Assembly: GCA_022447925.1 (NCBI GenBank)
Contig: JAKUTS010000003.1
Span: 62,001-126,000 of the forward strand
Length of the DNA: 64,000 bases
Source: SAR202 cluster bacterium
GTDB lineage: Bacteria > Chloroflexota > Dehalococcoidia > Lucifugimonadales > UBA2962
Direction: 5' to 3'
The notes beneath the pieces were generated by a model. The model saw nothing but the letters and a program-made list of their open reading frames with translations, made no database searches and had not been told where the DNA came from. Both the position numbers and the translations under genes were made by a program. The stretch's first letter is position 1. The number at the start of each line of letters is the position of its first letter. This document shows positions 8,521 through 16,306 of the stretch, piece by piece.

Positions 8521-10452
8521 ATGTTAAATGCAAATAACCTTACAAAAGCCTATGGGGATGAAATTTTATTTTCAGACCTTTCATTAAATGCTTCTGCTGG
8601 CGACCGTATCGCCCTGGTTGGAACTAACGGTTCTGGTAAATCAACGCTAATGGATATCTTAGCTGGAGAAACTATTGCTGATCGCGGAAAAGTATCACTA
8701 AAGAGAAACTGTAAGGTTGCGTATTTAAAACAGGAAAACTACAAGTTTGAAAACAGACCGTTGTTAAAGGAGGTTTGCCAAGAACCCGAGGAAATTTTAG
8801 GGCTTCGAAAAGAGCTAAGGGATATTCATGAGTTATTATCCAATGGAATCAATAAACAGACACAGTCAACACTACTATCTCGTATGGGAAAAATTAATGA
8901 CCATTTAGAGATTCATTCTCAGAACAACGCTGAGCATAAAGCAAAGATGATTTTATCAGGCTTGGGTTTTAAGCAAGTTGATTTTGGCAAACCTATAAAC
9001 GAATTCAGTGGTGGATGGATTATGAGAGCTTATTTGGGCAAGATACTTTTTCATGAACCTGATTTATTACTCTTGGATGAGCCGACCAATCATTTGGACT
9101 TGGAAGCAAATTTATGGTTTGAAGACTACTTACTGAATTTTAAAGGTGCTGTTCTTGTCACATCTCATGATAGAGCATTTTTGAATGCCGTCGCCACAAC
9201 AATATTAGCTATAGAAGATGAACAGGTAGTTATGCAAAAAGGAAATTATGATGAATACCTAATATCGAGAGAACAGGTTTTGAGAACTAAACAAGCGACT
9301 GCGGCTAGAACTGAAAAGCAAATAAAGAAACAGATGAAGTTTGTAGAGCGTTTTAGATCAAAAGCGACTAAGGCGAGACAAGTTCAAAGCAGGTTAAAGT
9401 CCATAGATAAAATTGAAAAGATAGAAATACCAAGAGCCACCAAGCGAGTGAGGTACTCTTTTCCTGAACCGCTAAGAAGTGGAAACGAAGTAATACATTT
9501 GGAGAATTTAAATAAATCATACGGTAAGAACGTTGTCTACAAAGGAGTAGATTTGTCTTTGAATAGGGGAGATAAAGTCGCTTTATTAGGAGTTAATGGG
9601 GCTGGTAAATCTACTATTCTGAAAATACTAGCAGGAGTTTTAGATTTCGACAGTGGAGGAAGAAAATTAGGACATAATGTAACAACCGGTTATTACGCTC
9701 AACATTTGCTTGAACTTTTAAATCCCGAAAAAACAGTCATACAAGAATTAGAAGAAGTCGCTGGAGGGGGTTTGCGAGGAGTCGTGAGAAATATCCTGGG
9801 AGGATTTCTGTTTTCAGGTGATGATATACATAAAACGATATCAGTTTTATCCGGAGGGGAAAAAGCTCGAGTCGCTTTAGCTAAATTATTGCTTCAATCC
9901 AGCAATTTACTTTTTATGGATGAGCCCACAAACCACCTCGATATTGAATCAAGAGAAATCTTAATTGATGCATTGAATGACTACCAAGGCACTTTATGTT
10001 TTATTACTCATGATCGAACTTTTATACATCAAGTCGCAAACAAAATCTTAAGGATAGAAGACGGACGGCTTGTTGTGTATCCAGGTGATTACTCAAGTTA
10101 CTTATCCAGCACGAGTAAAATGTTGTCCGAGCACGATTCAATTCAGCAGAAAGTATCTAATCCAAGTCAATTATCGGAGGGTAAACATAACCGGGAAAGA
10201 AGTACGCGGGGTTATTCTGTGAATAAAATGCGTAAATTAAATCAAAGGATAAGAACAATTGAATCAGAGCTTGAAAATATCAATTCTGAGATGAATAATC
10301 TAGAGAAGTTTTTTACTGATCCCAAAGAGATAGACAATCCGGAGCAACTAGCTAATTTAGGTCTAAAGCATGAAACTCTTCAAAAGCGATCTAAAGCGTT
10401 AGAGAAAGAATGGGAACAATTATCTAGTGAAATTGAGACAAACATCACATAA
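8521..10452 (+). CDS. ABC-F family ATPase (Uup/EttA-like ribosome-associated)
   Basis: A soluble 643-residue protein with two fused ABC ATPase domains and no membrane segment. Domain 1 has Walker A GTNGSGKST (about residues 34-42), signature FSGGW and Walker B LLLLDEPTNHLD. Domain 2 has GVNGAGKST, LSGGEKARVALAKLLL and LLFMDEPTNHLD. The interdomain linker carries the charged KQIKKQMKFVERFRSKATKARQ arm expected in ABC-F proteins. The C-terminus from about residue 560 is a coiled coil (NQRIRTIESELENINSEMN), as in Uup. ABC-F proteins act on the ribosome (translation rescue or antibiotic protection) or in DNA repair for Uup. The subtype cannot be settled here. Confidence 0.93.
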   Translation: MLNANNLTKAYGDEILFSDLSLNASAGDRIALVGTNGSGKSTLMDILAGETIADRGKVSLKRNCKVAYLKQENYKFENRPLLKEVCQEPEEILGLRKELRDIHELLSNGINKQTQSTLLSRMGKINDHLEIHSQNNAEHKAKMILSGLGFKQVDFGKPINEFSGGWIMRAYLGKILFHEPDLLLLDEPTNHLDLEANLWFEDYLLNFKGAVLVTSHDRAFLNAVATTILAIEDEQVVMQKGNYDEYLISREQVLRTKQATAARTEKQIKKQMKFVERFRSKATKARQVQSRLKSIDKIEKIEIPRATKRVRYSFPEPLRSGNEVIHLENLNKSYGKNVVYKGVDLSLNRGDKVALLGVNGAGKSTILKILAGVLDFDSGGRKLGHNVTTGYYAQHLLELLNPEKTVIQELEEVAGGGLRGVVRNILGGFLFSGDDIHKTISVLSGGEKARVALAKLLLQSSNLLFMDEPTNHLDIESREILIDALNDYQGTLCFITHDRTFIHQVANKILRIEDGRLVVYPGDYSSYLSSTSKMLSEHDSIQQKVSNPSQLSEGKHNRERSTRGYSVNKMRKLNQRIRTIESELENINSEMNNLEKFFTDPKEIDNPEQLANLGLKHETLQKRSKALEKEWEQLSSEIETNIT

Positions 10453-12121: not shown

Positions 12122-13267
12122 TTAGAGTACTTCCACAATTCTATCGCCAACTATTTTTTCTTCACCTGGATTTAATCCAAACATGTGAATTTCCATATAA
12201 TCCTCACCCTCTTTCGCAAAGAAAGCTTTTCTCGTCCAAATGGGAGGATTGCCAGATTTTAGTTTTTCAACTAAATCTTCGACTGTAAAATTTGCTTTAG
12301 AGTTCGGTGTAATGGTTAAGCCAAAAGGCAGAACCCCAAGGATGTTATCTATCATTGCTACATTGATTGTTGGTATATGTTTTATTTTATCTATTATTGT
12401 TTGCGTCATAGTTTCTGCCTTACTAAGACGTTCTTCATGATTTAATCCCATCCATCTTTCTACGGCTACAACGCAACCTATAATTTCTTGCCTGTCTACT
12501 TTTTGTGGCCTGCCAAGCCCTCTAATTCTTCTGCCTTCATACCCAATAAAAGATTGTAGGGCTAATTTATCAATGGCTTCTTGAGTTCCCAGTGCAAAAC
12601 CTACTGAATGAGGAGCTCCTAAATATTTAGCGGCTACGCATTGAATATCAGCACCCATTCTGACATATTTACCAATATTTTCTGTTGGATAGATTTGTCC
12701 AGCAGCATCTACTAATACATACAAACCATTTTTCTTTGCTATTTCGATGGTGTCTTCTAGAGACAACGCACTGGGGTCTATCCTTTGTTCGTCAGCATAG
12801 TAATGAACAGCGACAGTTTTGTCAGTTATTGCGTTTTCTAGGTCTTTTTTCGTAGTTTCATTTTCTGATCCGAAAGTAACAAGTTTTGCACCAGCTAATT
12901 CTAAGCAGCGGTCATACCAGTAGTGCTGTTTTCTTTGAATCAATATTTCGTTTTTCATTCCAGATGTATCAGGAAGTTGTTCTATAAAATCATCATTGTC
13001 ACCTGCCATAAAAGCAGCAGTTGCCAAGGTGAGTGCCGAACCGGCTCCAGAAGTTACATACGCTGCTGGCACATTAGTCAACTTCGCAATGTGTTCTCCA
13101 GCTTTTTCCTCTAATTCCATCATCGGTATATAGCTGGAATCAGCTTTATCCATTGCTTCCTTAACTTCTTGAACAGGGGTTGAGCCTCCAAGCATTGTTA
13201 CGCTTCCAATAGCATTAATTATTGGTTGAGCACCGATCGATTTATAAACTTCGCCCCAATTACTCAT
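12122..13267 (-). CDS. SelA-fold PLP-dependent enzyme (DgaE/SelA-like family)
   Basis: A 381-residue fold-type I PLP enzyme. It starts INAIGSVTMLGGSTPVQEV, has the SGAGSALTLATAAFMAG motif that holds the cofactor phosphate, VDAAGQIYP with the Asp that contacts the PLP ring nitrogen, and the presumed Schiff-base Lys in CVAAKYLGAP. It matches the group often labelled L-seryl-tRNA(Sec) selenium transferase-like or D-glucosaminate-6-phosphate ammonia-lyase-like, and is shorter than true SelA. It is more likely a lyase or transferase of sugar-acid or amino-acid catabolism than the selenocysteine synthase. It is divergent from tRNA-Gly and the RraA-like gene, a neighbourhood consistent with hydroxy-acid catabolism. 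Confidence 0.82.
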   Translation of the reverse strand: MSNWGEVYKSIGAQPIINAIGSVTMLGGSTPVQEVKEAMDKADSSYIPMMELEEKAGEHIAKLTNVPAAYVTSGAGSALTLATAAFMAGDNDDFIEQLPDTSGMKNEILIQRKQHYWYDRCLELAGAKLVTFGSENETTKKDLENAITDKTVAVHYYADEQRIDPSALSLEDTIEIAKKNGLYVLVDAAGQIYPTENIGKYVRMGADIQCVAAKYLGAPHSVGFALGTQEAIDKLALQSFIGYEGRRIRGLGRPQKVDRQEIIGCVVAVERWMGLNHEERLSKAETMTQTIIDKIKHIPTINVAMIDNILGVLPFGLTITPNSKANFTVEDLVEKLKSGNPPIWTRKAFFAKEGEDYMEIHMFGLNPGEEKIVGDRIVEVL

Positions 13268-15820: not shown

Positions 15821-16306
15821 ATGCCTATTTTAATTAATCAATACTCTTTCATTATTGTCAGCATCGCAAGTTTAATACTTGTTGGGATTTTTATATGGCG
15901 CATATTTAATCCTGCACTAGCTATATCAGCAATATTCGTAGCCATGTTAATTTTGTCAGTTGTTTTTATAAGCCTGCGTCGAGACGAAGCTACTCTTTCA
16001 AGTTTAGAAGACTTTAACCTTGCTTTGGAATCAGGCCCATTATTGATTGATTTCTACTCTGATTACTGAGTTGGGTGCCTAGTGGCTAAACCTGACGTTG
16101 ACAGGTTAGAAAAAAAACTTAAGGGCAAGGTGCAAGTTATTCGCTTAAATATTGCTAATGAATTTGGAAAGCAATTGAAATCCAAATTTAATGTACGAAT
16201 AGTGCCTGGGTTCGTGCTTGTTAACACAGAAGGCAAAGAAATATTGAAACGGACTGGGAAAGTTCCCTCTCTGGAAAAAATTGTTGAGCTAGTTGATTCT
16301 AAATAA
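15821..16306 (+). CDS. putative selenoprotein: membrane-anchored thioredoxin-like protein with UxxC motif (in-frame TGA at 16067-16069)
   Basis: The frame from ATG 15821 meets TGA at 16067-16069 but continues in the same frame to TAA at 16306, giving 161 residues if TGA is read as selenocysteine at position 83. Residues 8-30 and about 31-55 are two hydrophobic helices. A thioredoxin fold follows: LLIDFYSDY, then TGA, then VGCLVAKPDVDRLEKKL, IRLNIANEFG and the cis-Pro loop RIVPGFVLVNTEGKEI. The TGA falls exactly where thioredoxins have the first Cys of CxxC, giving U-V-G-C. A SECIS-like hairpin lies 19 bases downstream. Alternatives are a nonsense mutation or a base-call error (TGC or TGT to TGA). 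AGGAGG at 15775-15780 lies 40 bases before the ATG with no canonical start at the right distance, so initiation is also odd. Confidence 0.7.
16089..16107 (+). promoter_or_regulatory. candidate bacterial SECIS hairpin for the TGA at 16067
   Basis: AACCTG (16089-16094) pairs perfectly with CAGGTT (16102-16107) across seven bases, ACGTTGA. An A.A mismatch and an inner C-G pair (16096/16100) would leave a GUU apical loop with G at its first position. The loop begins 27 bases after the TGA. Bacterial SECIS elements lie within the coding region shortly after UGA, with a loop-proximal G, so distance and loop fit. Folding was done by eye. Chance hairpins of this size are not rare. Confidence 0.5.

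Follow-up and report, generated by a model that had tools for sequence, protein, structure and literature searches.

Thioredoxins with selenocysteine (Sec) in the redox site are an established part of the prokaryotic selenoproteome: reviews list a Sec thioredoxin (Trx, PF00085, UxxC; PMC9312934, PMC13188914), and thioredoxin-like selenoproteins have also been reported from ocean metagenomes (PMC9402790), among them, in the accessible part of one report, Trx-like 1 (COG0526, UxxC) and GOS_C, which has a Trx-like fold (PMC2398784). We here describe a gene in a 64,000-nucleotide stretch of a SAR202 genome (the window) which, judged by sequence comparison and with a probability of about 0.96, encodes a selenoprotein in which an in-frame TGA is read as Sec. 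That the product is both a selenoprotein and a membrane-anchored redox protein of the thioredoxin type we also regard as very probable. This reading draws on UGA conservation, covariation in the SECIS hairpin, the Sec machinery and the predicted fold, all of them computational results.

The protein shares with the listed Sec thioredoxin its Pfam domain, the placement of Sec first in the redox motif and a bacterial SECIS within the coding region, but the family in the window carries a membrane hairpin and the motif YS[DN]xUxxCLxxKPxVDRLE instead of WCGPC, a separation made on the description of the two. With the motif YSDYUVGC it scores 42.9 bits to the TrxA equivalog TIGR01068, against a cut-off of 96.8. 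The metagenomic families of PMC2398784 resemble it in being marine, UxxC-containing and thioredoxin-like and in their TGA-containing reads, whereas the accessible part of that report gives no membrane hairpin or link to SAR202; some of these reads could belong to the SAR202 family. The NCBIfam GOS_C model had no match among 26 scanned family members.

Membrane-tethered thioredoxin folds, probably outside the cytoplasm as here, are also found in ResA, TlpA, CcmG and the C-terminal domain of DsbD. ResA, TlpA and CcmG are anchored by a single helix, whereas the anchor in the window protein is a two-helix hairpin, and Sec replaces the first Cys. Its scores lie far below the NCBIfam cut-offs for DsbD (18.6 of 330 bits) and TsoB (20.5 of 805 bits), the TlpA and ResA models did not match it, and no NCBIfam selenoprotein model fits it. 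The cytoplasmic TrxA of the same genome (L018:9505-9843) is of the same domain family but has WCGPC, lacks a membrane part and scores 124 bits against PF00085 as well as above the TIGR01068 cut-off. In the part of the literature covered, we found no paper on a membrane-hairpin, non-WCGPC branch or on SAR202 with selenoproteins. UxxC Sec thioredoxins are already known; it is this branch, for which NCBIfam holds no model, that appears to be new.

Predicted product, membrane topology and role

The initial annotation had proposed that two apparently separate open reading frames (15821-16069 and 16082-16306) lie in one frame joined by a TGA, and these coordinates proved exact: the frame holds a single TGA among its 161 codons, with a TGC three codons further (Table 1). 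With TGA translated as U, the region around the motif reads ...LLIDFYSDY-U-VGC-LVAKPDVDRLE.... The thioredoxin domain is continuous over the TGA, as had been suggested, with a PF00085 match that spans it (residues 64-155, E=8e-11, 42.3 bits against a Pfam cut-off of 23.5). The score above the curated cut-off, together with the thioredoxin fold, places the protein in PF00085, which all 26 scanned family members match. Likewise recovered were the position of the TGA in the U-V-G-C motif, the second cysteine, the normal cis-Pro loop and the two predicted N-terminal membrane helices.

Table 1. Features of the predicted selenoprotein gene in the window.
Feature	Positions	Strand	Remarks
Complete predicted selenoprotein gene	15821..16306	+	161 residues including Sec83; ATG at 15821, stop TAA at 16304-16306
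Predicted first transmembrane helix, residues 9-28	15845..15904	+	AlphaFold model; hydrophobic sequence
Predicted second transmembrane helix, residues 31-52	15911..15976	+	AlphaFold model; charge pattern
TGA codon, probably read as selenocysteine (Sec83)	16067..16069	+	Opens the UVGC redox motif
TGC, putative resolving Cys86 of UxxC	16076..16078	+	Invariant alignment column
Putative SECIS hairpin AACCUG-[ACGUUGA]-CAGGUU	16089..16107	+	Loop starts 25 nt after UGA; GU at loop positions 3-4; covariation
Pro129, cis-Pro loop of the thioredoxin fold	16205..16207	+	Invariant

An AlphaFold model built from the family alignment (pLDDT 91, pTM 0.83) consists of a two-helix hairpin followed by a thioredoxin fold, and the solved folds nearest to it in a Foldseek search are thioredoxins. 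The product would be, on this model, a thioredoxin-fold oxidoreductase held in the membrane by its N-terminal hairpin. A nucleophile, a resolving residue and a cis-Pro make up the standard thioredoxin site; here Sec83 would be the attacking nucleophile and Cys86 would resolve the selenosulfide, and the protein may act on envelope proteins, its presumed substrates, by reducing or exchanging their disulfides or other oxidised groups. For a role as reductase or isomerase rather than oxidase we see an even chance.

The protein might instead be a DsbA-type oxidase, or a reductase that detoxifies peroxide or methionine sulfoxide, rather than a disulfide reductase. Its dipeptides between Sec and Cys (VG, IG, IA and VA in the family) are unlike those of a classical reducing thioredoxin, and Sec is common in peroxide-handling enzymes (table in PMC13188914); against this, the fold search returned thioredoxins, and no VKOR-type reoxidant was found in the incomplete assembly of this genome or in 17 of 19 other genomes tested. 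We consider such a role possible but rather unlikely.

A short turn, set in a stretch of positive charge, links the two membrane helices, and family members carry on average 1.9 Lys/Arg between the helices as compared to 0.04 at the N-terminus. Since by the positive-inside rule this pattern puts both ends of the hairpin outside, the redox domain probably lies outside the cytoplasm, and the UxxC site most likely at the outer face of the cytoplasmic membrane. Lipobox-type signals at the start of tandem or separate paralogues in three genomes (G035, G063 and G031) agree with this location. A cytoplasmic domain, in which case the selenoprotein would be a membrane-tethered reductase fed by ordinary thioredoxin reductase, is unlikely given the charge pattern and these signals, even though two helices return the chain to its starting side, so that sequence by itself does not fix the side, and no extracytoplasmic electron carrier was found (DsbD/CcdA and VKOR, searched in the same incomplete assembly). 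The initial annotation had placed the protein in the membrane, which stands; the probable extracytoplasmic side is an addition of ours.

The genome encodes CcmE and a cytochrome c assembly protein, so an extracytoplasmic protein of this kind might serve, for example, to hold haem-binding cysteines in the reduced state. A broader and distinctly doubtful proposal is that this undescribed, hairpin-anchored family serves SAR202 and related Chloroflexota as their chief thiol reductant in the envelope, replacing the DsbD/CcdA and VKOR routes that were not found and fed by some membrane electron donor.

The codon at the redox site across the family

A pair of open frames joined by a TGA says little alone, because the window holds 20 places where a TGA is flanked in both directions by at least 45 open codons, and our argument therefore rests on comparison. 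Three observations do go beyond chance: homology that extends across the TGA, purifying selection acting on either half (dN/dS of about 0.15-0.17 before and after the TGA, against the closest genus relative) and a conserved TGA with a SECIS. Among named relatives, SAR202 cluster bacteria (Chloroflexota, Dehalococcoidia) come closest, with 88% (VFGV01000022.1) and 66% (QGNM01000053.1) identity in the part after the TGA.

In the order (SAR202, Chloroflexota), the family is present in 97 of 250 genomes, 52 of them with a TGA form and 45 with only forms that have no TGA; the best matches in 98 relatives nearly all contain exactly one TGA. A protein of this type had been expected to be unusual for the lineage, but it is widespread, its TGA form alone occurring in 52 of the 250 genomes. 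Among 91 members extracted from DNA, the site codon is TGA in 55, TGC or TGT in 36 and anything else in none, so that the in-frame UGA aligns with the Cys of homologues, the pattern by which selenoproteins are recognised. Two further expectations were borne out here: Cys homologues have CxxC at the same place, and related genomes carry the same TGA, random stop codons being absent there. The same TGA and hairpin recur in the Thermoflexales, a different lineage of Chloroflexota, and one Verrucomicrobia assembly has a Cys form.

With the site masked, the family tree requires 8 Sec/Cys changes, a count of exchanges and not of their direction, at least 3 of which are forced by well-supported branches. 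Two genomes (G086 and G166) hold Sec and Cys paralogues together, and two others (G035 and G063; L043 and L044, frame +1 from about 1988) have a second TGA-containing homologue in tandem, which begins with a lipobox-type signal (ITILGC, AIIGC). Clustering the neighbours of about 100 loci showed synteny within genera and families only, and no operon partner conserved across families.

A pseudogene or sequencing error, with the TGA a true stop or a miscalled TGC/TGT, is very improbable. The genome is a draft assembly (1.58 Mb, 44 contigs, 86.7% complete), and TGA is one substitution away from TGC/TGT, but the same TGA recurs in 55 members from many separate assemblies, the site never shows TAA, TAG or a non-Cys sense codon, selection downstream of the TGA is purifying, and a covarying SECIS is present in TGA forms only. 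On site codons, SECIS covariation and dN/dS we rejected pseudogene, sequencing error and code reassignment.

SECIS hairpin and selenocysteine machinery

A putative SECIS with a 6-bp stem and a 7-nt loop lies at +23 to +41, counted from the U of the UGA. Bacterial SECIS elements are modelled as a stem of 4-16 bp with a loop of 3-9 nt and G[G/U] near the loop start, 16-37 nt after the UGA, with a minimum free energy of at most -7.5 kcal/mol (PMC13188914). The window hairpin fits this model for stem, loop and spacing; loop bases C30 and G34 are able to pair around GUU, which places G second in an N1-G-U-N-N2 pattern, and the loop GU is found in 50 of 53 distinct sequences. For energy, the window copy alone falls short of -7.5 kcal/mol, because the isolated 25-nt hairpin reaches -6.4 kcal/mol and the 50-nt RNA reaches -11.7 kcal/mol in a competing fold, in which an upstream hairpin starting at +4 is more stable than the SECIS stem. 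A ribosome pausing on the UGA would presumably sit over this competing hairpin. In one relative (L044), the same stem does form within a 50-nt RNA, whose fold reaches -15.2 kcal/mol.

The stem is rebuilt with different base pairs across the family (GCCUG/CAGGC, ACCUG/CAGGU, GCCUAUC/GAUAGGC, GCCCGUC/GACGGGC, GCCGAUC/GAUCGGC); L079 has CAAGUUCGU/ACGAGCUUG along with a changed protein sequence, and in G137/G138 it is shifted (UCGUUA/UAACGA). The null was drawn from 1000 sets in which synonymous codons had been randomised. TGA forms kept 280 of the 324 pairs (null 220.9, sd 6.5; 0/1000 as high), and 180 of 210 after dereplication (null 141.7, sd 5.4), whereas Cys forms kept 110 of 216 (null 102.3, sd 4.7). 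The Lys codons AAA/AAG covary with the Leu codons UUN/CUN through exchanges that are synonymous throughout (21:1:2:17, p=2e-8; with dereplicated sequences, p=6e-4); since the sequences are related, both p-values are indicative only. By these sequence comparisons, base changes that compensate one another, some of them purely synonymous, preserve the hairpin in TGA forms and not in Cys forms. Seven TGA members of two clades (L071, L074, L075 and L081; L076, L077 and L080) had no clear stem in the usual register.

All four components of Sec insertion whose search had been proposed, and whose absence would have spoken against a selenoprotein, are present in the genome: tRNA-Sec (selC; anticodon UCA, 60.9 bits), selA (531 bits, cut-off 268), selB (326 bits, cut-off 242) and selD (356 bits, cut-off 125). 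SelB with Sec-tRNA(UCA) would read the UGA of Table 1 as Sec, and the downstream hairpin would direct the insertion. The SelD of this genome has an in-frame TGA in SAGUAAK, at the Sec position of SelD selenoproteins (UxxK), and is itself a further selenoprotein candidate (L110:3863; contig C12, selD at 166832-167752). The tRNA-Sec adjoins the ordinary trxA (L018:9337-9433 and 9505-9843), and a thioredoxin match is found near tRNA-Sec in many relatives (for example G053 C68, G069 C1, G018 C1 and G025 C22). A SelA-looking gene in the window (12122-13267, minus strand) was rejected as a local Sec gene; the nearest type is a DgaE-type PLP ammonia lyase (TIGR01437; 195 bits, cut-off 385), and the true selA is located elsewhere in the genome.

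Across the order, tRNA-Sec or SelA was detected in 48 of the 52 genomes with a TGA form and not found in the remaining four (G002, G240, G137 and G138; 79, 55, 86 and 74% complete). TGA forms with hairpins are present in G137 and G138 (L083, L087 and L088) in the absence of any selA or tRNA-Sec found there; either these assemblies are incomplete or the machinery has diverged. Neither tRNA-Sec nor SelA was found in two Cys-only genera (g48, four genomes; g76, three tested) or in G057, G031 and G174. The machinery is present in other Cys-only genomes, so its loss alone does not account for Cys forms.

Reading of the UGA as another residue (Trp or Cys), or a general reassignment of UGA, is very improbable: a frame left open by translating TGA is in itself no proof of Sec, but the genome has a dedicated tRNA-Sec, SelA, SelB and SelD, the UGA aligns only with Cys and is accompanied by a SECIS hairpin, and TGA appears to end ordinary frames of the same family in relatives (e.g. 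L036, L039 and L052).

With the TGA read as Sec, this family forms a natural series of repeated Sec/Cys exchanges, and its strongly covarying SECIS can seed an annotation model. Standard annotation would split or discard such a gene, and with it a redox protein spread through SAR202. In the cells of SAR202, an abundant group of the deep ocean, selenium supply would be tied to a probable redox chemistry of the envelope.
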